From a virus: DNA of 30,227 nt. Positions 4,921-30,069 of this stretch are shown piece after piece. Position numbers and translations under genes: made by a program. Positions within the stretch are counted from its first letter, which is position 1; every line of letters begins with the position of its first letter. Location of the stretch: positions 1-30,227 of IMG/VR virus record IMGVR_UViG_3300010318_000026; one strand, written 5' to 3'. The notes beneath the pieces are model-generated. The model worked only from the letters and a program-made list of their open reading frames with translations, did no database searches and was not told where the DNA came from.

Positions 4921-5613
4921 ATGAGCGTAAACGTAAATACAATATACCAAAGAGTATTAGCTATAACAAACAAAGAGCAACGAGGTTATATTACGCCTCA
5001 GGAATTTAATTATCTCGCAAATCAAGCTCAGATGGACATATTTGAGCAGTATTTTTATGATATTAATCAGTTTAGTAGAATACCAGGTAACGACACTGAA
5101 TATTCTGATATGCTTGATATATTAGAAAAAAAATTAAGTTTATTTGAAAAAACAAACCAAACTGTAACAAATGGAACAACATTACCAAGCGATCTATATA
5201 GGTTAGGTAGTGTTATCTTCAATAATGCTGTAGCTGAATTAATTAGCCAAAAAGACTGGATATATATTAAATCTTCACCATTAGCACAGCCAACAAATGA
5301 TTTTCCTGTATATATAAAAGACGTAGACGGTATAAAAGTGTACGGAAAAGATAACAGCGGAAACATTGAACAAAAAACATCAAACGTTACTTGTAATTAT
5401 ACAAAGGTACCTAATGAAGTTTCATGGGCTTATAATTCTGTAACAGGTACGTATGATGCAGGTAATTCTGTTAATTTTGAATTGCATGCTTCTGAAGAAA
5501 CCGACTTGGTTATAAAAATATTAGCATTAGCCGGTATAATACTTAAAGATAATTCTTTATATGGCATTGGTAGTGGCGAAGATGTTAGAAATGAACAACA
5601 AGAAAAATCATAA
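4921..5613 (+). CDS. Head-tail adaptor / ring-type connector protein, 230 aa
   Basis: Probable connector (collar ring) protein that joins portal and tail. The helical N-terminus has the pattern INTIYQRVL..TNKEQRGYITPQEFNYLANQAQ. I associate this with a connector-like family in crAss-like and marine Bacteroidota podoviruses. Residues about 50-190 are beta-rich, and the C-terminal helix is DLVIKILALAGIILKD. The gene is immediately followed, after three bases, by a second adaptor-type gene and then the large tail protein, matching the usual connector-to-tail order. No enzymatic motif is present. The family resemblance is from memory of sequence patterns and could not be tested here. Confidence 0.6.
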   Translation: MSVNVNTIYQRVLAITNKEQRGYITPQEFNYLANQAQMDIFEQYFYDINQFSRIPGNDTEYSDMLDILEKKLSLFEKTNQTVTNGTTLPSDLYRLGSVIFNNAVAELISQKDWIYIKSSPLAQPTNDFPVYIKDVDGIKVYGKDNSGNIEQKTSNVTCNYTKVPNEVSWAYNSVTGTYDAGNSVNFELHASEETDLVIKILALAGIILKDNSLYGIGSGEDVRNEQQEKS

Positions 5614-5616
5614 TAA

Positions 5617-6498
5617 ATGGGATTAATTAATCAAACACAACAAGCATATTACGAAGGCAACAATTTTGGAGGCTATCAGTTTATATCACTAAAAGATATT
5701 GTAAATAATTTTATGCTATCTTATGTTGGTGAAGAAAAAATAATCCCTAAAATTAAAAGAAACAACGTAAGTTTTTATGCTCAAAGAGCATTGCAAGAAT
5801 TAAGCTACGATACTTTTAGAATTGAAAAATCACAAGAAATTGAAATTCCACCAACACTAGTAATGGTTTTGCCGCAAGATTATGTAAATTATGTTAAAGT
5901 AAGCTGGACAGATACAAGCGGCGTTGAGCATCCTGTATATCCTACAATAAACACTAGTAATCCAGAAGCTATATTGCAGGACGATCAGTATAATTATACA
6001 TTTGATGCAGATGGTAATTTATTAAAAGCTAATGAATCCGAAACGTGGACAAAATACAAAGACCAAAATACGGATACAGATATTGTTAATGACTTTTATT
6101 TAGAAGACAATAGAAGTTTTCAAACACTGAATGGCCAAAGATATGGTTCAGATCCACAACATATGAATTCAAATGGATCATTCTATATTGACCCTATTAA
6201 ATCAAGGATACATTTTTCTGGTAATTTAACAGATAAAATTGTAACGTTAAAATATATAAGTGACGGGTTAGGGACGGATGCAGAAATGAAAGTGCATAAA
6301 TTAGCAGAAGAAGCAATGTACAAATGTATAGCATGTTATATACTTGAAGCAAGAGCGAATACTCCCGAATACTTAGTTATGAGGTATAGAAAAGACAAGT
6401 TCGCTTCCGTTAGAAAAGCAAAACTTAGATTATCAAATATAAAACTTACCGAGCTTACACAAACCCTTAGAGGTAAATCAAAACATCTAAAACACTAG
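5617..6498 (+). CDS. Tail adaptor / tail tubular A-like ring protein, 293 aa
   Basis: Likely second connector ring, playing the role of T7 gp11 or P22 gp4 between portal and nozzle. An N-terminal helical region (GGYQFISLKDIVNNFMLSYVG, IKRNNVSFYAQRALQELSYD) leads into a strand motif common in tail tubular A proteins (PPTLVMVLPQDYVNYVKVSW). A variable central loop region follows, then a helical C-terminus (HKLAEEAMYKCIACYILEAR). It ends in a basic tail (LRGKSKHLKH) of the kind I recall from ring proteins of crAss-like phages. It starts three bases after the preceding stop (TAAtaaATG) without a Shine-Dalgarno. It stops with TAG, one of only two TAG stops found. The fold assignment is inference. 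Confidence 0.62.
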   Translation: MGLINQTQQAYYEGNNFGGYQFISLKDIVNNFMLSYVGEEKIIPKIKRNNVSFYAQRALQELSYDTFRIEKSQEIEIPPTLVMVLPQDYVNYVKVSWTDTSGVEHPVYPTINTSNPEAILQDDQYNYTFDADGNLLKANESETWTKYKDQNTDTDIVNDFYLEDNRSFQTLNGQRYGSDPQHMNSNGSFYIDPIKSRIHFSGNLTDKIVTLKYISDGLGTDAEMKVHKLAEEAMYKCIACYILEARANTPEYLVMRYRKDKFASVRKAKLRLSNIKLTELTQTLRGKSKHLKH

Positions 6499-6501
6499 AA
6501 T

Positions 6502-9500
6502 ATGCCTGAAATTAAAAATGCTTTTATACAAGGTAAAATGAATAAAGACCTTGATGAAAGATTAGTTCCTAATGGTGAATATAGAGATGCATTAAACATT
6601 GACGTTGATTATTCAGAAGGCAGTGACGTAGGCGCATTAAAAAATGTTTTAGGTAATATTGTTGTAGGATCAATTCCTGGTAATGGCGAATCTATTATTT
6701 CATCAGGATATTGTATTGGGTATGTTAAAGATACAAAAGAAAACAAAATATATTGGTTGATACAAGATAATCAATTTATACACCCTATAAATGGTACATT
6801 TCAAAATAGAGATATAATAGCTGAATACGATATTGAAACAAACACATTATCACCTGTTATAGTCGATTGGAGTATAGGTGCTTTAAATTTCAATAGATTT
6901 TATTTAGTTACAGGTATAAATATATTAGATGGTGTATTATATTTTACTGATAATTTAAACGAACCAAAGCAAATTGATATTGCATATTGGAAAACACAAA
7001 CAACAAATTTTCTTACAAATACAACAGGGTTATCAGAAGAACGAATTACTGTTATTAAAAAATCTCCATTACAAGCACCAACTTTAGTGTTGAGTTCGTC
7101 AACACGAGGTGGGAATGGGACTTCAGGTAATACAAACGTTTTTGTTTCATTAAATTTATCCGACAGCGGCACAAATGTAAATACATTAAGTGATGCTAAA
7201 GAATCTGGTGAAACAATTGTGGGAACATTTACATTAGCACCTAATTATGAACCAGGAGATGTGGTTACATTAAAATATACATTTTTAGAAGGTGATGATC
7301 AAACAAAATTAGAAGCAAGAATATTATTATCATCTGCATATGTAGCTGGTGCAACATTTTTTTCAGGTGAATTATTAACTATAAGTGAAAATGTGCCTGG
7401 TGGAATTGTGCAATGGCAAGTAATATTAGAAGAGGAAGACCCGTTATTTGAATTAAAATTTCCATTATTTTCATACAGATATAAATATACTAATGGTCAA
7501 TATAGTTGTTTTGCACCATTTTCAAAAGCTGCATTTTTACCAGACCCAACTAAAATAGGCGGCAATTTTGAATATAATGCAAAAGACGGTTATAATTTAG
7601 CCATGATTAATAGTGTTAGAAGTATAACTATTAATAATATAAATCACAATATAAATACTACAGATGTTGAAGAAATAGATATATTATATAAAGATTCTGT
7701 AAGTAGCAATATTTATATTGTGGATACAATTAAAAAAATAAATGGCAGCTTAGCAACAAGTTTTTCAGTTAAAAATGAACAAATATATAAGGTTGTTGAA
7801 GCCAATCAATTATTAAGATTATTTGATAGCGTGCCTAAAAAAGCTAAATCACAAGAAATTAGCTCAAATAGAATTATATATGGTAATTATACACACCAAT
7901 TTAATTTACCAAATGAGATTACTTTTGATATAAAATTAAAAAACAGATATAATCCTACAGATAATAGAACAGATTTATTATCTATAAAATCAAATAGAAC
8001 ATATCAAATAGGTGTTGTTTATATGGACGAGTATGGTAGACAAACACCTGTGCTAACAGATAAATCTGGTATTATAAAAGTTCCGTTCAGTCAAGCTAAA
8101 AATTTAACTAAATTTGAACCTAAAATCACGTCAGCATGGCCTAGTTTTGCAGAATATTATAAATATTTTATAAAAGAAATATCCAAAACTGTTTATAACT
8201 TAGCTGCAGATAGTTTTTATCAAGACAATGAAGGATATATGTATATATCTTTTCCTTCTTCTGAAATAAATAAAGTAAAAGAAGAAGACATTATATTATT
8301 AAAAAAGGGAAGAGATAACGTGCCCTCCGAAGTATCTACAAGTTTTAAAGTATTAGATAAGTTATCCGCACCCCCATCTTTTTTAGCAAAACCTATTGAG
8401 GTTACTTATGACCCTGCGGTATTTAAATATTCCGCACAATTTGGAGATGGTACTGAACAAACAACAATAAAAGCGGGTTGTACACCTGTGCCAAATCATA
8501 ATACAATAACCGTAAGAGATTTTTTTAAATGGCAAGATACAGATGCTGCTGGAAATGTATACGATAGCGATTTACAAACAGCAATTGGAACATCTATAGA
8601 AGGTAGAGCTGCGTTAGCGCCAGGCAAAAAAGTAAGATTTGAAAACGCAGATGCTAAATCAAAAGTATATACTGTTAAATCTTTGGAAACACACATGACC
8701 GGAGGCGATGATGTTGAAGTAACATTTGAGGAAGAATTTGGTAATGATATTTTAATATTATATGATGATTATGAAAACAACCCAACAAGTGCTAAAGTTA
8801 GCGGTAGATTAGTTGGCGTAGAACAAGTTGATAAATCAGGAAGTCCTGAGTTTGAAGGTAGATTTTTTATTAAATTAAAAGCAGATAATAATTTATTAAC
8901 AGAGCTCGTTGGCACAAATGTTAATAACTTGAATGCAATATCTACAACAAACGGAGTTGATGGCGATGCACAAAATAATACAAGCGGAACATCAGGTAAT
9001 CCTAGCAATCCAGATAGACAATATTTTATTAGATTTGGTGGTAAAAATGGAGTAAATTCATCTTCAACATATAACTTGGCAGCGCAATCAGGAGGTTTTA
9101 ATCAAGCTAATATTGCTAGCTTAGGTGCATCGCAATTAGATTTAACTGAAGGTTGGCATATAACTATAGGAACAACAAAAGCTTTTGATGATCCAGAATC
9201 ATACTATAGAAGCCATGCGTTTACAACCAATTTAAAAGCTGGGAATTATATATCATTTTTTAACAAATATAAAGCAAACGGAACTGATTTAGATAATAAT
9301 TTTTATAAAATAGAAGATGTATTTATTGGTGATGCAAGTGATGGTAGAAGATTTTGGACATTGAAGTTTAATAAAAATTTAGATGGTGATGTTAGAACAT
9401 TTTTTGGAACTGTAGACAGTACAGCAACTAAAATGTCAATAACAGTACATGATTTCAAAAAAGATAGTTTAAAAAATATAACTAATCCACCTATATTTGA

Positions 9501-10998
9501 AGTTGAGCCGCAAGATGATGTAGATATTGATATATATTACGAAACTCAAGAAGTATTTGTTCAAGGTAATCATGGGCAAGCTAATAATTTATCATATCAT
9601 AACTGTTATAGTTTTGAAAATGGGGTTGAATCGTTTGTTATAAGAGATGATTATAATGCGCCAGCGCTAGGTAAAGGTGTTCGTGTTTCAACTGTATTTG
9701 AGGATAATTATCAAGAAGAAACTTTAAAGTCTGGCTTAATATATTCACAAATATACAATGGTAAAACAGGTATAAATAAATTAAATCAATTTATTATAGC
9801 TGATAAAATTACAAAAGATTTAAACCCAGAATATGGTAGTATACAAAAGCTTTATGGAAGAGACACTGATTTACTAGCTTTATGCGAAGATAAAATTGTA
9901 AAAATATTAGCAAATAAAGATGCTGTATTTAATGCAGATGGTAATCCACAATTAATTGCTAGCAATAGAGTATTAGGTCAAGCTATTATACCCGCGACAT
10001 TTGGATCATATGGCTGTCAAAATCCTGAAAGCTTTGTAGATTATACGTACAGATCTTATTTTGTAGATAAAGTAAGAGGATGCGTTTTAAGATTATCAGC
10101 AGATGGAATTACTGAGGTTTCAAATTACGGAATGAAAGATTATTTTAAAGATAATTTAAGGGCGCAAGTTTCAAATTCTAATTATGGTAGAATATTTGGA
10201 ACATATGATGAGGTTAAAAATCAATATAATGTTTCATTACCCACAGGCGTTGCAACTACAGTTTCGTATTCTGAATCAATAAACGGATGGGCAAGTAGAA
10301 AATCATTTTTACCGGAAGGTGGATTGAGTATAAATAACAAGTATTACACATTTAAAAATGGTAGTTTATACGAACATCATAGCGAGTCAGGAGTGAGAAA
10401 TACTTTTTATGGTGTAAAAACAAATCCTGAAGTTACATTTTTATTTAACGAAGCACCTGCAAATGTTAAAAACTTTAGAACATTAAATTACGAAGGCAGT
10501 TCAGGTTGGACATGTGCTACCATCGTTACTGATAAGCAAGACGGTTCAGTTCCTTCGTTTGTTGAAAAAGAAGGTAAATATTACAACTACATATCTGGTG
10601 TTACTGAAAATGAAAACACTCTAGATACTAAAGCTTTAAATGTACAAGGCTTAGGTAATTTAACTTCACAAACAACAAATAGTGGAAACAGAATATTTAC
10701 ATTTAATTTTAATTTAAATAATGATCTACAAATTGGTGATAATTTATATTATGTAGATTCATCAAGTAATAAACAAGATTTAGGTAAAATAACGGCAATA
10801 AATAAAGTTAGTAAAACAATTACTATTGTAGATGGGTCAGAAGTGCCACAAGCGTCTGCATATATGTTTTATAGCAAAGATGCTAAATTCAATACATCAG
10901 GTATTTTAGGATATTACGCAGAAACAAAAATGACAAACACGTCTACAGATTTTAAAGAATTGTACTCAGTTGGTTCTGAGATTAGTATAAGTAGTTAA
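6502..10998 (+). CDS. Large tail nozzle / stabilisation-type protein, 1498 aa
   Basis: Probable tail tube/nozzle that plugs the portal channel. The N-terminus (residues about 5-40) has GKMNKDLDERLVPNGEYR followed by ALNIDV. This is the pattern of the stabilisation (P22 gp10-like, muzzle/nozzle) proteins of crAss-like and other podoviruses, and it corresponds functionally to T7 gp12. The rest is almost wholly beta-rich, with many Asn/Thr/Gly/Asp strands. The C-terminal part contains propeller-like segments (LYGRDTDLLALCEDKIVKI; YGRIFGTYDEVKNQYNVSLP). At 1498 aa it is much longer than P22 gp10 or T7 gp12, and residues about 620-1080 look like an insertion. No separate tail fibre is visible in this window, so part of this protein may serve in receptor binding (inference). 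The next gene starts 31 bases later. Confidence 0.7.
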   Translation: MPEIKNAFIQGKMNKDLDERLVPNGEYRDALNIDVDYSEGSDVGALKNVLGNIVVGSIPGNGESIISSGYCIGYVKDTKENKIYWLIQDNQFIHPINGTFQNRDIIAEYDIETNTLSPVIVDWSIGALNFNRFYLVTGINILDGVLYFTDNLNEPKQIDIAYWKTQTTNFLTNTTGLSEERITVIKKSPLQAPTLVLSSSTRGGNGTSGNTNVFVSLNLSDSGTNVNTLSDAKESGETIVGTFTLAPNYEPGDVVTLKYTFLEGDDQTKLEARILLSSAYVAGATFFSGELLTISENVPGGIVQWQVILEEEDPLFELKFPLFSYRYKYTNGQYSCFAPFSKAAFLPDPTKIGGNFEYNAKDGYNLAMINSVRSITINNINHNINTTDVEEIDILYKDSVSSNIYIVDTIKKINGSLATSFSVKNEQIYKVVEANQLLRLFDSVPKKAKSQEISSNRIIYGNYTHQFNLPNEITFDIKLKNRYNPTDNRTDLLSIKSNRTYQIGVVYMDEYGRQTPVLTDKSGIIKVPFSQAKNLTKFEPKITSAWPSFAEYYKYFIKEISKTVYNLAADSFYQDNEGYMYISFPSSEINKVKEEDIILLKKGRDNVPSEVSTSFKVLDKLSAPPSFLAKPIEVTYDPAVFKYSAQFGDGTEQTTIKAGCTPVPNHNTITVRDFFKWQDTDAAGNVYDSDLQTAIGTSIEGRAALAPGKKVRFENADAKSKVYTVKSLETHMTGGDDVEVTFEEEFGNDILILYDDYENNPTSAKVSGRLVGVEQVDKSGSPEFEGRFFIKLKADNNLLTELVGTNVNNLNAISTTNGVDGDAQNNTSGTSGNPSNPDRQYFIRFGGKNGVNSSSTYNLAAQSGGFNQANIASLGASQLDLTEGWHITIGTTKAFDDPESYYRSHAFTTNLKAGNYISFFNKYKANGTDLDNNFYKIEDVFIGDASDGRRFWTLKFNKNLDGDVRTFFGTVDSTATKMSITVHDFKKDSLKNITNPPIFEVEPQDDVDIDIYYETQEVFVQGNHGQANNLSYHNCYSFENGVESFVIRDDYNAPALGKGVRVSTVFEDNYQEETLKSGLIYSQIYNGKTGINKLNQFIIADKITKDLNPEYGSIQKLYGRDTDLLALCEDKIVKILANKDAVFNADGNPQLIASNRVLGQAIIPATFGSYGCQNPESFVDYTYRSYFVDKVRGCVLRLSADGITEVSNYGMKDYFKDNLRAQVSNSNYGRIFGTYDEVKNQYNVSLPTGVATTVSYSESINGWASRKSFLPEGGLSINNKYYTFKNGSLYEHHSESGVRNTFYGVKTNPEVTFLFNEAPANVKNFRTLNYEGSSGWTCATIVTDKQDGSVPSFVEKEGKYYNYISGVTENENTLDTKALNVQGLGNLTSQTTNSGNRIFTFNFNLNNDLQIGDNLYYVDSSSNKQDLGKITAINKVSKTITIVDGSEVPQASAYMFYSKDAKFNTSGILGYYAETKMTNTSTDFKELYSVGSEISISS

Positions 10999-22176: not shown

Positions 22177-23901
22177 TTATCCGTCACACGCTAAACAATT
22201 TTCATCCATTGCTGAATCGGCAATATCTCCTCTTAGAACAGACTCTGTTCGCATATAATACAAAGTTTTAATACCTTTCTTCCAAGCTGCCATATGGACT
22301 TTATTAATCCATTTTGGCGTAGCTACAGATGGAAAAGCTAAATTTAAAGAAACAGATTGGTCAATATATTGTTGACGTATACCTGCTTGATTAACCAATT
22401 CTAATTGATTAATCTCTTTAAATGTTTTAAATACTTCTTTAGCTGGTATGTCATTATACTTACCAAGCATTATATCATCTAATTCTTTCACTCCTTGTAC
22501 AGAACCACCATCTCTTAAAATTTTATTCCATACTTTTTCAGTATCAATTTTATACCGTCTTAGTATCTTTTTTAACGTAGGGTTTTTGCGAATGAACGTA
22601 CCTTTTGCGCTTTGTTCAGTAAAGACGTTTGCAGCCCATGGTTCAATCCCGGGAGAAACATTACCACTAAGCTTGCTGTTAGATACAGTAGGAGCAATAG
22701 CGCGCAAATGAGTATTACGAAAGCCCGAACCACGACACCATAAAGGCTCACCAAATTCTTCTGCAAGAGCCATGGAAGCTCTTTCGCTTTCAATTTTAAT
22801 TTGACTAAATATTCTTCTTGTTTCATATTGTGATAATAAACCTTCAAATGGTAAACCTTGCTCTTGTAAATATGTATGCCAACCTAACACACCTAATCCT
22901 AACGCTCTACCTTTTTCAGCAGATCTAACAGAATTATGAAAGCCAACTTTACCTTTTGATTTTTGTATAAATTCTTCTAACACACCATCTAAAAACCATA
23001 TACTATCGTAAATTAGATTAGTGTTCTTCCATTCGTCATATTTGGCTAAGTTTAATGACGAAAGACAACAAACAAATGAATGAGATTCATCAGTATGTAA
23101 CGTAATCTCACTACAGATATTTGTCATATGTACTTTTAATCCATGCTTTCTGTAAGCGTCTGGGTTATTTTTGTTTGTATTTCCTTTAAATAAGATATAA
23201 GGCTCTCCAGTTGCTTTACGTTTTTGAAGTAGCTTACCCCATAACCTCCTCGCATCTTTATCGCCCGCATCAAGTCTTCGCATAAACTTGTCGCCGACCA
23301 CAGCGCACTGGTGTAAGTTGAGCGATTGACGATTAACGTCTCCTTTAGGTTCTCGTATTTCCAACCACTCTTCGAAATCGGGGTGGTCAATATTAATATT
23401 AACGCTTGCAGCTCCTCTTCGGACAGATCCTTGATTCGTGGCAAGTATAGTTGAATCGTATATCTTAGCAAAAGGCACAATTCCATCAGATGTTCCATTA
23501 CCAGTAATTTTAGCTCCGGCGGGTCTAATCATATTTATTCCGATACCAACTCCGCCGCCGTGTTTTGCGAGTAGCATCATCTCTAAGTTTTTCATTCCAA
23601 TCTCATATATCGAGTCACCAACATCAATACCAAAGCACGATATAGGCAAACCTCGATCTGTGCCTGTATTAGAGAGCACAGGAGACGCTAAACATAGCCA
23701 ACCCTTCCATACATATTGAAAAAAAGTTTCAGCTAGTTCTGGGCGATTTAAACGCTTCGCTACAGTTGTAGCAACACGCATATAAGCATCCTTTGGTGTT
23801 TCATCTCCTACAAGATAACCACCACCGATTGTTTTCTTATATACATCTGTATCACCCCACGCAGGGTAATCTTCATTCTTTTTCCAATCCGGGTTCCACA
23901 T
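22177..23901 (-). CDS. nrdA: Class I ribonucleotide reductase, alpha subunit
   Basis: Catalytic subunit that reduces ribonucleoside diphosphates to deoxyribonucleotides, working with the beta subunit encoded at 24339-25331. The active-site set is complete. C89 (LPISCF) and C278 (FVCCLSSLNL) form the substrate-reducing pair. N261, C263 and E265 (NICSEI) match the radical-site N-C-E. Y548 and Y549 (TLYYMRTES) relay the radical. C569 and C572 (CLACDG) are the C-terminal redox pair. At 574 aa it is much shorter than E. coli NrdA (761 aa); the N-terminal ATP-cone is absent, so overall-activity inhibition by dATP is probably lost. The start ATG lies 29 bases inside the end of the preceding 73-aa gene. 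It is the last gene of the leftward operon and is followed by the terminator. Confidence 0.95.
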   Translation of the reverse strand: MWNPDWKKNEDYPAWGDTDVYKKTIGGGYLVGDETPKDAYMRVATTVAKRLNRPELAETFFQYVWKGWLCLASPVLSNTGTDRGLPISCFGIDVGDSIYEIGMKNLEMMLLAKHGGGVGIGINMIRPAGAKITGNGTSDGIVPFAKIYDSTILATNQGSVRRGAASVNINIDHPDFEEWLEIREPKGDVNRQSLNLHQCAVVGDKFMRRLDAGDKDARRLWGKLLQKRKATGEPYILFKGNTNKNNPDAYRKHGLKVHMTNICSEITLHTDESHSFVCCLSSLNLAKYDEWKNTNLIYDSIWFLDGVLEEFIQKSKGKVGFHNSVRSAEKGRALGLGVLGWHTYLQEQGLPFEGLLSQYETRRIFSQIKIESERASMALAEEFGEPLWCRGSGFRNTHLRAIAPTVSNSKLSGNVSPGIEPWAANVFTEQSAKGTFIRKNPTLKKILRRYKIDTEKVWNKILRDGGSVQGVKELDDIMLGKYNDIPAKEVFKTFKEINQLELVNQAGIRQQYIDQSVSLNLAFPSVATPKWINKVHMAAWKKGIKTLYYMRTESVLRGDIADSAMDENCLACDG

Positions 23902-24094: not shown

Positions 24095-24345
24095 TATTTA
24101 ATTAAATGATTAATCCAAGCAATTAAGCCGTTGATATTTAATAAAACTAGATTCCATTGTTTTCTAGCTCCTGTTTGTATCATTACACAAATAAAACCAG
24201 CAATGTATAGCATCGGTTCAATTGTCCACTGCGCTGCCACAAGAAAACCTGCACCCATATATCCAATACGAGTAGACATTTTTTCAAGTGGCGTCAGTCT
24301 TTTAGTTGTTGCTATTAGCTTTAGTATTTTTCTTTTTTTTACCAT
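24094..24345 (-). CDS. Small membrane protein, 83 aa, between nrdB and nrdA
   Basis: A basic N-terminus (MVKKRKILKLIATTKR) leads into two or three hydrophobic helices (about residues 28-40 and 44-58, and a weaker one at 64-81). A conserved-looking stretch reads IQTGARKQWNLVLLNING. The ATG overlaps the nrdB stop by seven bases, and the stop overlaps the next start as TAATG. Function is unknown. It could be a membrane transport-like protein, a lysis helper or an early host-takeover protein; nothing in the sequence decides this. A membrane gene inside an RNR operon is unexpected and worth noting. Confidence 0.68.
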   Translation of the reverse strand: MVKKRKILKLIATTKRLTPLEKMSTRIGYMGAGFLVAAQWTIEPMLYIAGFICVMIQTGARKQWNLVLLNINGLIAWINHLIK

Positions 24346-25331
24346 ATGTCCTCAAAATCTTCTCCTTCGTTTGCTTTACTGTAGTCAGTCGGCCTAACAG
24401 CGAAAAAATCAGTATGAGTATGGCCCCCGGTAAGATGATCAAACCAAGCCATGCGATCAACCGCTTTTTGGTCGTAAGATTTTTCTGTCCAGTCCCATTG
24501 ATTATACTTCCTAGTTGTGTAGCCCAGCTCCGCAAGCTTGTCTCCGACTCTTTTTTTGATGAAGTGTTGTAAATCATAAGCTTTTAAATTTTCAATATCA
24601 CCTGCTTCAAACATCTTACTAATGTAAGTCATTTCAGCATTGTGCATTACTAATGCGGCTTCAAATATGTGCGGTTCGCATTCTTCCTTTAATCCAGGAA
24701 TTTGTGAGCACATATGTCTAAATAATTGGCATCCCATTTTTGAATGCAACGATTCATCTCTTACAGACCATTTCATTTGTTGGCCAATACCTTTAAGCAT
24801 ATTCCTCATTTGAAAAGAATACAATACTGCAAACGCAGAATATAAAGATACACCTTCAGCAAACGCAGAAAATACTGCAAGACTTTTGCCAATCCCTACG
24901 GGATCATTGCCTTCATAAGCAACTAAATTTTCAAATCTTTTTGCTGTAGCAGGCTCATGTAAGAAAGCCTCATAGTCTTCAAGACCTAAGGTTTCATTTA
25001 AATAACTGTATGCAACTGCATGGATAGTCTCTTGACTTCCAAACATCATTGCCATTTGTTGAATTTCATGTTTAGGAAACCATGAAACAACTTTTTGTGT
25101 CCAATAGTCCGAAACTGCGCATTCGGTCTGTGCAAAACCGAGTAATATGTTTCCGACCAAACTCTTCTCTTTATCATTAAGTTTTTCTTTCCAATCTTTA
25201 ACATCACCGCTCATTGGTATTTCAGTATGCAACCAAAATGCTTGAGCTTGCTTTAACCAACCTTCTGTATAATACTCTGGGTATTCAAAAGGCTTATAAG
25301 GTATTCTTTCTGTAAATAAAGGTACATTCAT
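24339..25331 (-). CDS. nrdB: Class I ribonucleotide reductase, beta subunit
   Basis: Ferritin-like radical-generating subunit for the alpha chain. The metal ligands have the spacing of E. coli NrdB: E70, E101, H104, E159, E193 and H196 (E. coli D84, E115, H118, E204, E238 and H241). The radical Tyr is present at Y108 (E. coli Y122). The first ligand is Glu instead of the usual Asp. Chlamydial class Ic proteins have Glu there too, but they lack the Tyr, so this looks like a Tyr-radical enzyme with an altered ligand. The C-terminus is acidic (EGEDFEDIW), as needed to dock on the alpha subunit. The length of 330 aa is normal. The gene starts one base after the 54-aa mini-gene and overlaps the next gene by seven bases. 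Confidence 0.95.
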   Translation of the reverse strand: MNVPLFTERIPYKPFEYPEYYTEGWLKQAQAFWLHTEIPMSGDVKDWKEKLNDKEKSLVGNILLGFAQTECAVSDYWTQKVVSWFPKHEIQQMAMMFGSQETIHAVAYSYLNETLGLEDYEAFLHEPATAKRFENLVAYEGNDPVGIGKSLAVFSAFAEGVSLYSAFAVLYSFQMRNMLKGIGQQMKWSVRDESLHSKMGCQLFRHMCSQIPGLKEECEPHIFEAALVMHNAEMTYISKMFEAGDIENLKAYDLQHFIKKRVGDKLAELGYTTRKYNQWDWTEKSYDQKAVDRMAWFDHLTGGHTHTDFFAVRPTDYSKANEGEDFEDIW

Positions 25332-25606: not shown

Positions 25607-25772
25607 AGCATTTAATGTTGTATTTCTTGTGTATAAATATTAAATCTTTCCATCTTAAGTAACCTCGTTTTTTTACTGACCACTTAATGAATGTATCGAT
25701 CTTTCTTTCTTTATACTTTTGCCTAGCTATATGCTTGGTTGATTCTGTAGTATTTCGATTACTCGGTCGCAT
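25599..25772 (-). CDS. Mini-gene, 57-aa basic protein
   Basis: Starts MRPSNRNTTESTKHIARQ, continues KIDTFIKWSVKKRGYLRWKD and ends YNIKCYG. The only ATG in the frame is at 25770-25772, 46 bases inside the end of the resolvase gene. The stop overlaps the next start by eight bases. The basic, Trp/Tyr-containing helix could bind nucleic acid. Function is unknown. Support comes from the unbroken frame and the chain of overlaps that leaves no gap in the operon; the long overlap with the resolvase gene lowers certainty. Confidence 0.5.
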   Translation of the reverse strand: MRPSNRNTTESTKHIARQKYKERKIDTFIKWSVKKRGYLRWKDLIFIHKKYNIKCYG

Positions 25773-26182
25773 TCTTTTTGATTTTGTGGTTTAAACAATG
25801 TATAGCTTGGAAATTGTTCTGTAACTAATTTTTTAAACAACTTCCATCTCATTGGAAAAGATTCATTAGGTCTTCCTTTAGTTTCAATTATAAAGCTTTT
25901 GCCAATAAAATCTGGCGTATACTTTATAGGCAATACTCTTTTGCTACCTCTATTTTTAAAATAGCCTTTGCTATTTGATTGCCTTTCCCAACATTCGTTT
26001 TCAAAATGAAAACCATTTAGTAAAACAAATGTTTCACCTTCGTATGTAGCTTTTATACCTGCTTTTTTCAAAGCACAATACATATATTTTTCTAAACCAG
26101 ATGCAAAGGTAATTCCATCGTATACAACTTTTTTAGAAACTACTGGACCTCTTTTTCTTTTATATGTCCTTTTCTTTCTCAT
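25727..26182 (-). CDS. T7 endonuclease I-like Holliday-junction resolvase, 151 aa
   Basis: Cuts branched DNA (Holliday junctions, replication forks) so that replicated DNA can be packaged. In T7 it also helps degrade host DNA. The catalytic set of the family is visible: E31 in FASGLEK, D91 in IKYTPDF, and E100 and K102 in IIETKGR, matching T7 E20, D55, E65 and K67. The length is close to that of T7 endonuclease I (149 aa). The N-terminus is very basic (MRKKRTYKRKRG). I chose the ATG at 26182, four bases after the preceding stop. An upstream in-frame ATG at 26209 would add nine residues and overlap the preceding gene by 23 bases. An insertion at about residues 56-86 distinguishes it from T7. 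Confidence 0.85.
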   Translation of the reverse strand: MRKKRTYKRKRGPVVSKKVVYDGITFASGLEKYMYCALKKAGIKATYEGETFVLLNGFHFENECWERQSNSKGYFKNRGSKRVLPIKYTPDFIGKSFIIETKGRPNESFPMRWKLFKKLVTEQFPSYTLFKPQNQKECDRVIEILQNQPSI

Positions 26183-26186
26183 AAGT

Positions 26187-26450
26187 TTATTTATTCCAGA
26201 CTGCATCATTGTCTAACATATAACCATCGTGCTCAGGTTTATAATCCTTTTCGTTTGTATATGTTTCTTTAGCTTTTTGTAAATATAATACAGCATCCAT
26301 TAATTCTTCTTGTAAATGATTTAACCAATCAATCATTTTTGAGGGGTCGTCTTCAAGCGTTACGCCATATTTTGCATAGCCAACGTTTGATCGTTGTTTG
26401 AATTTGTTTACAACGCGTTCAACAACTGGGTCTCTATATTCTTTACTCAT
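26187..26450 (-). CDS. MazG-like NTP pyrophosphohydrolase-related protein, 87 aa
   Basis: A short helical protein with the pattern YAKYGVTLEDD followed by WLNHLQEELMDAVLYLQK. E48, E49 and D52 form the E-E-x2-D part of an all-alpha NTP pyrophosphohydrolase site. The helix pair typical of this superfamily is present, but the protein is shorter than a full MazG domain, so it may work as a multimer or with the fusion protein encoded just before it. Similar small proteins in phages are annotated as nucleotide pyrophosphohydrolases. It overlaps the preceding gene by eight bases. Expected substrates are (d)NTPs, yielding (d)NMP plus PPi. Substrate choice cannot be read from the sequence. Confidence 0.6.
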   Translation of the reverse strand: MSKEYRDPVVERVVNKFKQRSNVGYAKYGVTLEDDPSKMIDWLNHLQEELMDAVLYLQKAKETYTNEKDYKPEHDGYMLDNDAVWNK

Positions 26451-27255
26451 CTTTTACAAATGTTCCGTTAATCATTTTACCGGTTCTGCTGTTAATTACT
26501 TTGAAAGCGGATTGAATACAATCTTCTATATTGTGTCCTTTCTGCTTAGCTAAATTAGTTAATACAACAACAATATCTCCTATGGCATCTACTATTTCAT
26601 CATTATTGTTTTTTAATAAAGCTTTAGCTAATTCCCCACACTCTTCTTGTAATTTTACATATTGAGTCGTAGCATCGCCTTTAGAATATATACCTCTATC
26701 TTCTGCCCATTTTCTAATTTTATTAAATATCATTAGATTCTTTTTAGGCATTGTTAAACCTCCAATATTATTTTGGTCAACATACTCTTGTAATGATTCA
26801 AGGCTATTGATTTCTGTAAATGCTTCCCATAAAGCTTTGTTATATACATAGCTTCTATCACTATTATACATTGATGTGTGTGCGTTAAAAGCTATCCAAT
26901 CGGCTAATTTTGCAGATAAATGTATCTTTCCAAATTCAGTTTGCCAATTCAAACCAAGCTGATCGTGCAATCTACCTTTTAATTTTGTTAAAGGCACAGG
27001 GAATGTTGTGGTTTGTTCGGTTACGTTTATTTTCATTTTAAATAAATTTTTATAAAGTTTGTGATCTTTTCTGTAGCCGTAAGACTGTTGAAGTTCTATT
27101 TCTTTCTTTGATATATAATCTATATCGTCTGATTGATCAAGAACTTCATATTCTCCAGGCTTATAACCCTGCGTTAGCGTAACCCTTCTATTAAGATCAC
27201 GTGTAACGCCGATTTTTTTACCCGGGATGTGATATAAAAAATAAGTTTCTGTCAT
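26443..27255 (-). CDS. GIY-YIG-like domain fused to MazG pyrophosphohydrolase, 270 aa
   Basis: Two domains. Residues 1-65 resemble a GIY-YIG/T5orf172-type fold: TYFLYHIPGKKIGVTRDLNRR has strands at the GIY and YIG places with Arg residues after them, followed by a helix KKEIELQQSYGY. The G-I-Y and Y-I-G triplets themselves are degenerate, so nuclease activity is uncertain. Residues about 175-262 are a MazG domain with E204, E205 and E208 (EECGELAKAL) and E220, D223 and D227 (EIVDAIGDIVVVL), the metal-binding set for cleaving NTPs to NMP plus PPi. Residues about 90-165 are unassigned. The start overlaps the stop of the thymidylate-synthase-family gene as TAATG, so the two are probably translationally coupled and may share a nucleotide pathway. 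Confidence 0.75.
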   Translation of the reverse strand: MTETYFLYHIPGKKIGVTRDLNRRVTLTQGYKPGEYEVLDQSDDIDYISKKEIELQQSYGYRKDHKLYKNLFKMKINVTEQTTTFPVPLTKLKGRLHDQLGLNWQTEFGKIHLSAKLADWIAFNAHTSMYNSDRSYVYNKALWEAFTEINSLESLQEYVDQNNIGGLTMPKKNLMIFNKIRKWAEDRGIYSKGDATTQYVKLQEECGELAKALLKNNNDEIVDAIGDIVVVLTNLAKQKGHNIEDCIQSAFKVINSRTGKMINGTFVKDE

Positions 27256-28088
27256 TATTTTCCAACGTTTAGTGGGGCTGGTAAATCGCCCATGTGTTTA
27301 TATCCATGCAATATCATACTGTCCAGTGATGGAATATTAATTTGATTTTGACTATTAATGCAAACGCCTATAGTATCTAATTGCAATACCGGACAATGAT
27401 ACATATCGGTTGTTCTATACATTATTGTAGTCGCTTGATCAATATGATTTTTGTAAATATGACAATCGCCAAGCTGACCAATTAATTTACCTGGTTTATA
27501 ACCATGGCCTTTAGCTAATAATTCTAATAATAAACCGTACATAGCTATATCGTAAGGCAAGCCTAAAAATACATCAACTGATCTTTGTTGCCACATTAAA
27601 TCAAGCTTACCATTGTTTACATAAATTTGAAAGCCATAATGACACGGTGGCAAAGCCATATCTTTCATATCAGCAGGATTCCAAGCTGATACAACCATTC
27701 TTCTTGAATTAGGATTATTAGATAATTCTAATAATAAATCATACATTTGATCAATACCATTAAAGTCTCGCCATTGCTTTCCGTATACTGGGCCTAATGT
27801 TTCATCAGTTCTACCAGACCTTTCATAATCTGCTCTCCAATATTTAACACCGTTATCTTCTAAATACTTTAAATCAGTTCTGCCTTGTAGTATCCACATA
27901 AGCTCAACCTTAGCAGCTTTAAAAGAAACTTTTTTCGTGTATAGCAATGGAAAACCTAAAGCCATATCGTGTCTAATAGTATAACCAAACTTTGATAACG
28001 TACCAACTTCGGTTCTATCATCTTTATGTTTGCCGCTATTAAGTATTTCAGATACTAATATCCTATATTGTTCATTTATATTTATCAT
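27255..28088 (-). CDS. Thymidylate-synthase-family enzyme, probable dCMP (hydroxy)methylase
   Basis: Transfers a one-carbon unit from methylene-tetrahydrofolate to C5 of a pyrimidine nucleotide. The catalytic C149-H150 (LPPCHYGF) is present, as are phosphate-binding R129-R130 and R169, E62, W84, D172, and H210 and Y212 (GDCHIY). All match E. coli ThyA. However, the dUMP-specifying Asn of true thymidylate synthases (E. coli N177 in LPFNIA) is Asp here (D180 in LPYDIA). T4 dCMP hydroxymethylase has Asp at this place, and the equivalent L. casei change converts the enzyme to dCMP. I therefore infer dCMP as substrate. The chosen ATG at 28088 gives 277 aa, in line with the family; an upstream ATG (28154) would add 22 unrelated residues. 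The start overlaps the end of the 90-aa gene by 17 bases. A ThyA function remains the alternative. Confidence 0.88.
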   Translation of the reverse strand: MININEQYRILVSEILNSGKHKDDRTEVGTLSKFGYTIRHDMALGFPLLYTKKVSFKAAKVELMWILQGRTDLKYLEDNGVKYWRADYERSGRTDETLGPVYGKQWRDFNGIDQMYDLLLELSNNPNSRRMVVSAWNPADMKDMALPPCHYGFQIYVNNGKLDLMWQQRSVDVFLGLPYDIAMYGLLLELLAKGHGYKPGKLIGQLGDCHIYKNHIDQATTIMYRTTDMYHCPVLQLDTIGVCINSQNQINIPSLDSMILHGYKHMGDLPAPLNVGK

Positions 28089-28344
28089 AATAATATTTAC
28101 AGAATTTATAATATTCTGGCCATAATGTTTCTTTGTCATATAGATAAGGAGCAAAATTACATTTCTCTCCTTTTTTATATGGGCCTATGTTTATACATAT
28201 CTTCCATTTACCATCTTCTGTTGTTCCCCAAGGCGATATTCTTATATTGTTTCTTGTACAAAATAACTTCCACTCTTGTTCTTCAGGTGTTGCAATATAA
28301 GACGGCAGATAGTTTTTCTTTCTTCTTGTATATAAACTTTTCAT
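28072..28344 (-). CDS. Unknown small protein, 90 aa
   Basis: Basic, Tyr- and Trp-rich protein beginning MKSLYTRRKKNYLPSYIA, with NNIRISPWGTTEDGKWKI and a C-terminal helix LWPEYYKFCKYYYDKYK. Its ATG abuts the primase-helicase stop exactly (TAA-ATG) and its end overlaps the next gene by 17 bases, so it is a real operon member. No domain is recognised. A strand-rich core followed by an aromatic helix suggests a small folded protein. The place directly after a replicative helicase hints at a replication or nucleotide role, but this is only context. Confidence 0.68.
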   Translation of the reverse strand: MKSLYTRRKKNYLPSYIATPEEQEWKLFCTRNNIRISPWGTTEDGKWKICINIGPYKKGEKCNFAPYLYDKETLWPEYYKFCKYYYDKYK

Positions 28345-30069
28345 TTATTCCCAAGGCATTGGCTCTTCATTTAGTTCAACCACTTCGTGTGGCATAAAAC
28401 AACCTGATCTTGGTTCCCATTTAAAATGTGCTTCAGCACCATTCTCACCAAGATTCTGAAACTTAACTTTTAGAACTTTTGCTTTAACAGTCTTGTCTTC
28501 ATAATTTCTGTGTACTAATAAACCATGATAAGATGCATCATACCATTCACCTCCGCCTTTGATGTTATACATTGTTGGTTCTTCAATCTTGCCATTACCG
28601 TCTTTATACATTTTAGTAGGATGTGCTACTATAAATACTAATACATCAAACTTTTTTGCAAAAGATTCTATCTTAGTAAGATACTCCATTGTATATCTAT
28701 TTACATCTTCAGTCTTCGCATCAACGTCTCGTATTTTATTAAATGGGTCTATAACCAAGCATTTAATACCTTTACGTTTTACAAGCTCAGCACCTTTACG
28801 TAGCACAGATTCAAGTGTATATCTTTCCATGTCAATGAAAAAGAAATTATCATTAACATGCTCAGCAACTTGCTTCCATTTTTCTGAACCAATATCAGAT
28901 TTTTTTGGCATATCTTGCCAAACTTTTCTCATTAATTTATGAGCGTGTAAATATGTTGGTGCATTTTCAGGAGACGCAAACGCTGTTCTCCAACCATAAT
29001 TCATATTATAGCCCACGACCATCTGATCAACGAAATCTGACTTTCCGCTACTAGGTATCCCAGTAACAGTGATAAACTGGCCAGTATAAGTAGAAAAAAT
29101 ACGATCAAAATTAGGTAGCCCAACTTGGTACCCAGGTTTGAAGCCATGTTTAACAAAGTCTGTAACTTCATGTTCTATATCTTTAAAAGTTGTTACGTTT
29201 TCTAATGGTACCGGTCTACAATCTTTAATTACATTAGCTAAATCTTTTTTGCCATACTTAAGTAAATATTCATTTGCATCTTTGCAATCAATAAAGTTTA
29301 CTAAGTAACATACTTCAGCACCAAGCCTTCTAATTAACTCTGCTTGTAATGCAGCACCAGCATCATCTTGATCAACAGCTAATATTATTTTTTCTTTGTC
29401 TGTAAAATAATCAATACAGTTATCAAGATAATCTAAATTGTTGTGGTTTAATGTTGCACCATTTGGAACTGATACTACATTTTTAATACCCGCTTCATGA
29501 AACGATAACACATCCATTTCACCTTCAACAATAACACACGTATCGTGGTTTACAATACTATTTATATTATAAAAGACTTTCTCAGCACCTTTGTATAATT
29601 TAAAGTTCTTTCGTCCGTCTCTATATTTAATATTAATGAGCTCATCGCCCATTACATAATTGAACTGGATAGTATTCTCAACTTGTCCGGTCTGTGGCAT
29701 ATATTCCTTACCTTCTGTAACATTTAAATCATTTAATGTTTGATAAGATATACCACGATCTTTAAACCATTTTACAACTTTTTCATTTAAATCTTTGTAT
29801 TCAACTAAGTGTATAGCATCAGGTTTTTCATATACCTTATTTGGTTCACCTTTGCGTTGATATGTATGTAATTGAAAAGTTGAATCACAGTTATGACAAG
29901 TTCCTAATCCACGTTCCCAGTCGTAACTAGCACATTGTTGTTTCCTGTTTTCAGGTTTCCGGTCAGATGAACACAGGGGACAAATCCCCTGCGTTGCACC
30001 AACCTTCAATTCATGCTGGTTAAACTGGTCGATTAAAAATCCGTTAATCTCCGTGTTGTTTACTTGCAT
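28345..30069 (-). CDS. T7 gp4-like DNA primase-helicase, 574 aa
   Basis: Bifunctional replication protein. Residues 30-61 hold a zinc-binding domain (C30, C33, C58 and C61; CPLC...CHNC) for primer-site recognition. A TOPRIM-type primase core follows, with E182 in VIVEGEMDVLSF and D233, D235 and D236 in LAVDQDDAG. The C-terminal half is a RecA-like hexameric DnaB-type helicase with Walker A at 337-344 (GIPSSGKS), Walker B near 438 (KCLVIDPFNKI) and a later VFIVAHPTK motif. It is in line with T7 gp4 (566 aa). It starts 11 bases after the SSB stop and is directly followed by a small gene. A DNA polymerase is expected outside the window. There is no sign of an internal start for a helicase-only form. 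Confidence 0.93.
   Translation of the reverse strand: MQVNNTEINGFLIDQFNQHELKVGATQGICPLCSSDRKPENRKQQCASYDWERGLGTCHNCDSTFQLHTYQRKGEPNKVYEKPDAIHLVEYKDLNEKVVKWFKDRGISYQTLNDLNVTEGKEYMPQTGQVENTIQFNYVMGDELINIKYRDGRKNFKLYKGAEKVFYNINSIVNHDTCVIVEGEMDVLSFHEAGIKNVVSVPNGATLNHNNLDYLDNCIDYFTDKEKIILAVDQDDAGAALQAELIRRLGAEVCYLVNFIDCKDANEYLLKYGKKDLANVIKDCRPVPLENVTTFKDIEHEVTDFVKHGFKPGYQVGLPNFDRIFSTYTGQFITVTGIPSSGKSDFVDQMVVGYNMNYGWRTAFASPENAPTYLHAHKLMRKVWQDMPKKSDIGSEKWKQVAEHVNDNFFFIDMERYTLESVLRKGAELVKRKGIKCLVIDPFNKIRDVDAKTEDVNRYTMEYLTKIESFAKKFDVLVFIVAHPTKMYKDGNGKIEEPTMYNIKGGGEWYDASYHGLLVHRNYEDKTVKAKVLKVKFQNLGENGAEAHFKWEPRSGCFMPHEVVELNEEPMPWE

Follow-up and report, generated by a model that had tools for sequence, protein, structure and literature searches.

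The dCMP hydroxymethylase of phage T4, gp42, carries a two-part signature of hydroxymethylation: an Asp (D145) that precedes the catalytic Cys by three residues, and a Ser placed two residues ahead of the catalytic Tyr (S94-x-Y96) (PMC6400193). The enzyme is without a C-terminal tail, and its D145N variant makes no hmdCMP (PMC6400193). In phage XP12, 5-methylcytosine (5mC) replaces all cytosine (PMC7653180, PMC9206674); the XP12 group is compared here through its genus mates DLP4 and DoCa6. When the Asn of ThyA is changed to Asp in the laboratory, the resulting enzymes make 5-methyl-dCMP, according to the passages of PMC8670742 that cite such variants. Further, Asp-177 marks the thymidylate synthases of modified-cytosine contigs, where it co-occurs with PF01503 pyrophosphohydrolases (MetaGPA, eLife 2021, PMC8670742). 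The core idea that an Asp-177 phage thymidylate synthase marks modified cytosine is therefore already published (PMC8670742). Among the 2-aminoadenine phages, MazZ supplies dGMP for PurZ (PMC8342488).

In this report, we describe a thymidylate synthase homologue with Asp at the same site (hereafter TS-D), encoded in a stretch of viral DNA of 30,227 nucleotides (the window). On balance, we judge that TS-D modifies deoxycytidylate for the phage and is most likely a dCMP 5-methylase. What appears to be new is the slot in which its gene lies, beside a gene for a MazG-domain fusion, because this slot is exchangeable between TS-D and gp42-like enzymes. We found no report of such an exchange in a literature search with incomplete paper coverage.

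The pyrimidine-selecting residue of TS-D

The TS-D gene occupies positions 27255..28088 of the minus strand, with its ATG at 28088 and a TAA that ends at 27255, and encodes 277 amino acids. The protein matches the Pfam Thymidylat_synt profile (PF00303) with a score of 276.6 bits (cut-off 24.3). This match, the Cys nucleophile (C149, codon at 27642..27644, minus strand) and the accompanying Arg, Glu, Tyr, Asp and His residues place it in the thymidylate synthase superfamily. Its residues R25, E62, W84, Y102, C149, H150, R169, S170, D172, H210 and Y212 are those conserved in the family. An AlphaFold2 model (pLDDT 91.9) finds its best solved matches in structures of E. coli ThyA (TM 0.88).

TS-D departs from the canonical dUMP-using enzymes at the residue that selects the pyrimidine. 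D180 (codon GAT at 27549..27551, minus strand), within the motif FLGLPYDIAM, aligns with E. coli N177 and with D179 of T4 gp42. A search of viral contigs showed Asp at this place in 80 of 80 relatives, and because it is invariant across 58–93% identity, D180 is neither a chance substitution nor a sequencing error. In all, 148 stretches related to TS-D were found. A copy on a 3.4 kb contig of a Bacteroidetes MAG (L087) also has Asp, and in the search that returned it, every bacterial ThyA locus has Asn. An earlier reading of the DNA, made from sequence only, had given these coordinates exactly, without the strand; the Asn-to-Asp switch and the kept catalytic residues that it had described are borne out by a residue table in which all 11 of the positions listed above match the family.

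The closest parallels are the laboratory variants L. casei N229D and E. coli N177D, which likewise combine a ThyA scaffold with one change to Asp; TS-D, however, is natural, conserved and phage-borne. The MetaGPA enzymes share with TS-D both Asp at the pyrimidine-selecting site and the company of a PF01503/MazG-type pyrophosphohydrolase. They differ in that position 147 is also altered in the modified contigs, whereas TS-D keeps His147, and in that those contigs often carry a carbamoyltransferase or a dCMP deaminase (PMC8670742), whereas no deaminase was found in the relatives of TS-D.

It could be argued that TS-D is mainly a dUMP thymidylate synthase despite its Asp, serving plain nucleotide supply. 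Sequence and fold are ThyA-like, with 38-40% identity to ThyA overall, and the NCBIfam label is thymidylate synthase. Position 177 nevertheless decides the pyrimidine, and Asp shifts ThyA variants to dCMP, again according to the relevant passages of PMC8670742. A dCMP deaminase was also not found in the relatives. These points make a dUMP enzyme improbable, as does the genomic context described below.

One operon slot, two enzymes

Directly downstream of TS-D lies a gene for a 270-residue protein that joins an N-terminal domain to a MazG nucleotide pyrophosphohydrolase domain (26443..27255, minus strand); the stop codon of TS-D and the start codon of this gene overlap (TAATG). The protein matches PF03819 (28.8 bits), PF01503 and the MazG-like family phrog_1992 (6e-32), and its fold matches are to MazG, MazZ and DCTPP1. 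Profile and fold thus identify a MazG-type NTP pyrophosphohydrolase. The model has a mean pLDDT of 69 and is poor outside the MazG domain, so the N-terminal domain is left unnamed; in a relative, this domain has a weak T5orf172/GIY-YIG-like match. A predicted C-terminal beta hairpin resembles the hairpin described for MazZ. Of 82 TS-D loci, 81 contain a related MazG gene, which is in the next position in 77. The sequence-only reading, in its account of the surroundings of TS-D, had overlooked this nearly invariant partner.

The remainder of the operon is shared as well. Upstream of TS-D are a small conserved protein with no assigned function (28072..28344, minus strand) and a primase-helicase with Toprim and DnaB domains (28345..30069, minus strand), identified by profile match and used for a backbone tree. 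The small protein was recognized as an ORF cluster in relatives (61/82 TS-D loci and 62/80 gp42-like loci); the copy in the window was assigned by position, as a longer overlapping ORF hid it in clustering. The primase-helicase is found in 79/82 and 76/80 loci, respectively. On the other side of the MazG fusion gene is an operon-conserved small protein with an EExxD stretch (26187..26450, minus strand), which belongs to PHROG families of unknown function and recurs in 59/82 TS-D and 74/80 gp42-like loci. It is followed by a DUF1064/endonuclease I-like resolvase (25727..26209, minus strand; PF06356, 29.7 bits; phrog_190) and by the small (24339..25331, minus strand; PF00268, 177.9 bits) and large (22177..23901, minus strand; PF02867, 310.9 bits) subunits of ribonucleotide reductase. 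Genes for Erf, an exonuclease and a sigma factor lie in the operon of relatives. In five relatives (L011, L012, L014, L021 and L076), a class II-like (B12) reductase, 620 amino acids long, stands in for the NrdA/NrdB pair of class I. Some TS-D phages have a DUF6445-like gene near the reductase genes (L042:4937-5512, L051:13689-14261, L056:4900-5472 and L057:4175-4732), the product of which resembles by eye a 2-oxoglutarate oxygenase.

The slot between the primase and the MazG fusion does not always hold TS-D. In a record related by its capsid protein (L216 in G042), it is filled by a gp42-like dCMP hydroxymethylase of 217 amino acids (L216:1339-1992), and the family recurs in the same operon of other marine contigs (L217-L296). 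A search with this enzyme returned 480 related stretches. The gene upstream of the MazG fusion is TS-D in 94 loci and gp42-like in 150, and no locus has both; these loci are partly redundant and comprise 177 distinct MazG proteins, 77 with TS-D and 100 with gp42-like enzymes. A single locus with neither enzyme is interrupted by a contig end. Overall, the MazG fusion partners one of the two enzymes throughout the 246 loci, with two exceptions. The same picture emerges from loci retrieved by the MazG protein alone, a procedure that does not select the partner enzyme (69 gp42-like, 10 TS-D, 1 cut). Among 32 capsid-relative records, six have the MazG fusion, five of these with TS-D or a gp42-like enzyme and the sixth beginning inside the MazG gene. 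The other 26 records, many of them fragments, have neither the fusion nor either enzyme.

The two enzymes have replaced one another repeatedly. At least 11 changes of state are needed on the primase tree, or at least seven using only branches with SH-aLRT of at least 95; the MazG tree needs at least 13 changes, or at least six under the same restriction. With soft polytomies, these counts are lower bounds. This repeated exchange beside one MazG protein is the strongest evidence that TS-D works on dCMP, as gp42 does. It would be unexpected for a supplier of dTMP to alternate with, and exclude, dCMP hydroxymethylases beside a common partner. The published co-occurrence of Asp-177 with PF01503 proteins, together with the PF01503 match of the window's MazG protein, also supports the modification of dCMP. 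We thus regard dCMP as the likely substrate of TS-D, given Asp-177 and the context of the slot; the sequence-only reading had favoured the same substrate, and the MazG neighbour and the mutual exclusion strengthen that view.

The gp42-like enzyme also has relatives in a cultured gut phage: in the Bacteroides fragilis phage BF486P2 (OP172667), two genes near a dUTPase gene are annotated as deoxycytidylate 5-hydroxymethyltransferases (L412:2156-2917 and 4989-5669).

Methyl or hydroxymethyl

TS-D shares with T4 gp42 and its sister-phage counterparts the Asp at 179/177, and with the latter also the operon slot and the MazG fusion. At the T4 positions, Ser, Tyr, Asp, Cys, Thr and Asp179 are shared by every one of the 103 distinct gp42-like enzymes, and the dUMP hydroxymethylase of SPO1, gp29, has the Asp before Cys as in T4 gp42. 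TS-D and its clade have Leu at this place (L146 in TS-D, three residues before C149), neither Asp nor Glu, and TS-D has Pro two residues before the Tyr (G-P-V-Y). Further, TS-D retains a ThyA-type C-terminal tail (A-P-L-N-V-G-K). This tail and the equivalents of L143, V93 and H147 are kept across the TS-D clade. At the level of residues, TS-D is what one would expect of a dCMP methylase, with Asp-177 on a ThyA-like, hydride-transferring scaffold. The alignment with T4 gp42, SPO1 and ThyA that had been proposed as a check thus upholds the Asp-179 match but reveals no hydroxylation signature in TS-D. Assignment to the dCMP hydroxymethylase family, the first suggestion of the sequence-only reading, fares poorly on these grounds; 5-methyl-dCMP, its second option, fits the residues better.

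A tree of thymidylate synthase relatives (66 rows, with unsure placement of long branches) puts TS-D and its relatives in one clade (100/99 support). Subject to the same uncertainty, this clade is separate from the Asn-177 ThyA-like enzymes, from the XP12 group and from the gp42-like enzymes, from which it is distant. In the same tree, Asp-177 arises within the Asn clade, too: the Asp-177 thymidylate synthase of Lak megaphage B5 clusters with a phage enzyme that has Asn-177 (97/93). The Lak protein (L195:2461-4011) is a DHFR-TS fusion with residues as in TS-D and is possibly a bifunctional dCMP methylase. Its fusion to DHFR favours methyl transfer, as only a hydride-transferring, DHF-producing reaction would need DHFR.

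The presence of the ThyA residues and tail, taken with the absence of the hydroxylation signature, makes 5-methyl-dCMP a likelier product of TS-D than 5-hydroxymethyl-dCMP. In the mechanism that we propose, Asp180 would read the N3/N4 side of cytosine, replacing the uracil-reading Asn, and Cys149 would attack C6, with the one-carbon unit coming from methylene-tetrahydrofolate. Because the water-excluding residues and the tail of the closed site are kept, the methylene intermediate would probably be reduced by hydride transfer to 5-methyl-dCMP and not hydroxylated.

Another possibility is that TS-D is a dCMP hydroxymethylase that achieves the chemistry of gp42 by different residues, giving the phage 5-hydroxymethylcytosine (5hmC), possibly further decorated. 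TS-D sits in the gp42-like slot and has been exchanged several times; given this repeated replacement by hydroxymethylases, the needed product could be hmdCMP. No DHFR and no dCMP deaminase were found in 34 relatives, whereas DLP4 has both beside its enzyme, which counts against methyl transfer. The XP12 group shares the GLPYD motif with TS-D, and the DLP4 enzyme adjoins a nucleotide pyrophosphohydrolase gene. Unlike TS-D, however, the XP12-group enzymes have Asn at the Asp-before-Cys place (position 143) and Pro at 147, lack a ThyA-type tail and form a separate clade, and a dCMP deaminase is annotated alongside them; these differences at 143 and 147 and in the tree also weaken the case for methyl transfer. 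Four relatives have a cassette after the ribonucleotide reductase large subunit (L007:10790-13386; also L008, L009 and L010), absent from the window, that encodes JmjC_2-domain, cupin-like, glycosyltransferase-like and GT29-like proteins and is possibly linked to DNA decoration. It is limited to these four contigs, and its link to DNA is putative. Moreover, TS-D has neither the Asp before Cys nor the Ser-x-Tyr and keeps the tail and His147, and in T4 hydroxymethylation is lost with D145N (PMC6400193). We therefore consider a hydroxymethylase unlikely, if still to be reckoned with, and continue to favour 5-methyl-dCMP as the product.

The 5-methyl-dCMP would probably be destined for DNA. We presume that the MazG-domain enzyme turns dCTP into dCMP, which would feed TS-D and clear unmodified dCTP; T4 gp56 serves gp42 in the same way. 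The co-conservation of a MazG-like enzyme with the synthase of a modified nucleotide is reminiscent of PurZ-MazZ, although that pair concerns a purine and MazZ is (d)GTP-specific, whereas the dCTP role of the window's MazG domain is presumed. Host kinases would make the modified triphosphate, and the cytosine-modified DNA would resist host nucleases. Incorporation into DNA, protection from nucleases and the specificity of the MazG domain are all steps that we infer; at that level, our analysis agrees with the sequence-only reading that modified cytosine in viral DNA is the likely purpose.

Two observations bear on this scheme. No thymidylate kinase was found in relatives (34–46 across the enzyme searches), and a search of 45 records for a DNMK-family (T4 gp1) kinase was likewise negative; both results count against it. 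As had been stated, the window has neither a sugar transferase nor a gp1-like kinase; in the wider search, the kinase was again not found in those records, and glycosyltransferase-like genes appeared only in the four-contig cassette. Second, 5-methyl-dCMP is deaminated to dTMP in XP12-infected cells. TS-D might thus make 5-methyl-dCMP mainly as a route to dTMP and not for DNA modification, as the dCMP deaminase beside the enzyme in XP12-group phages could suggest, but the lack of a deaminase in the 34 relatives renders such a route most improbable.

The phage and the significance of the slot

The phage is a marine Elemovirus/crAss-like podovirus, probably of Flavobacteriia. Among named phages, the relatives of its capsid protein infect Flavobacterium (Elemovirus), Cellulophaga and Maribacter. 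A virion protein of 1498 amino acids (6502-10998) matches the C-terminal domain of the crassvirus muzzle (30 bits, cut-off 27), and three relatives together have crassvirus muzzle, GroEL/ES and Erf genes. A host in the Flavobacteriia is likely, in keeping with the Bacteroidota host first suggested; the accompanying description as a T7-like podovirus gives way to these capsid relatives and the muzzle domain. No Rfam families or tRNAs were found in the window, and defence models gave no matches. Short palindromes have observed/expected ratios of 0.59-0.82 in cultured relatives without the enzyme and about 0.9 in TS-D phages. Marine relatives that seemingly lack the whole module also have ratios of 0.88-0.97, and restriction-site avoidance is therefore uninformative as a sign of modification.

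These results suggest that hundreds of uncultured marine Bacteroidota phages probably have modified cytosine (148 TS-D and 480 gp42-like stretches). We tentatively propose, with less than even confidence, that two enzymes alternate in the operon slot, a methylase derived from ThyA and a hydroxymethylase of the gp42 type, and that both use the same MazG fusion. Close relatives would thereby change from 5mC to 5hmC DNA or back, perhaps escaping modification-dependent nucleases. The phages constitute a natural set of pairs in which the choice between methyl and hydroxymethyl may depend on a single gene. With them, the question of hydride transfer versus water attack in this enzyme family can be put directly to the test. 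They also suggest a sequence rule, whereby the presence or absence, alongside Asp-177, of an Asp three positions ahead of the Cys may allow 5hmC or 5mC, respectively, to be predicted from metagenomes.
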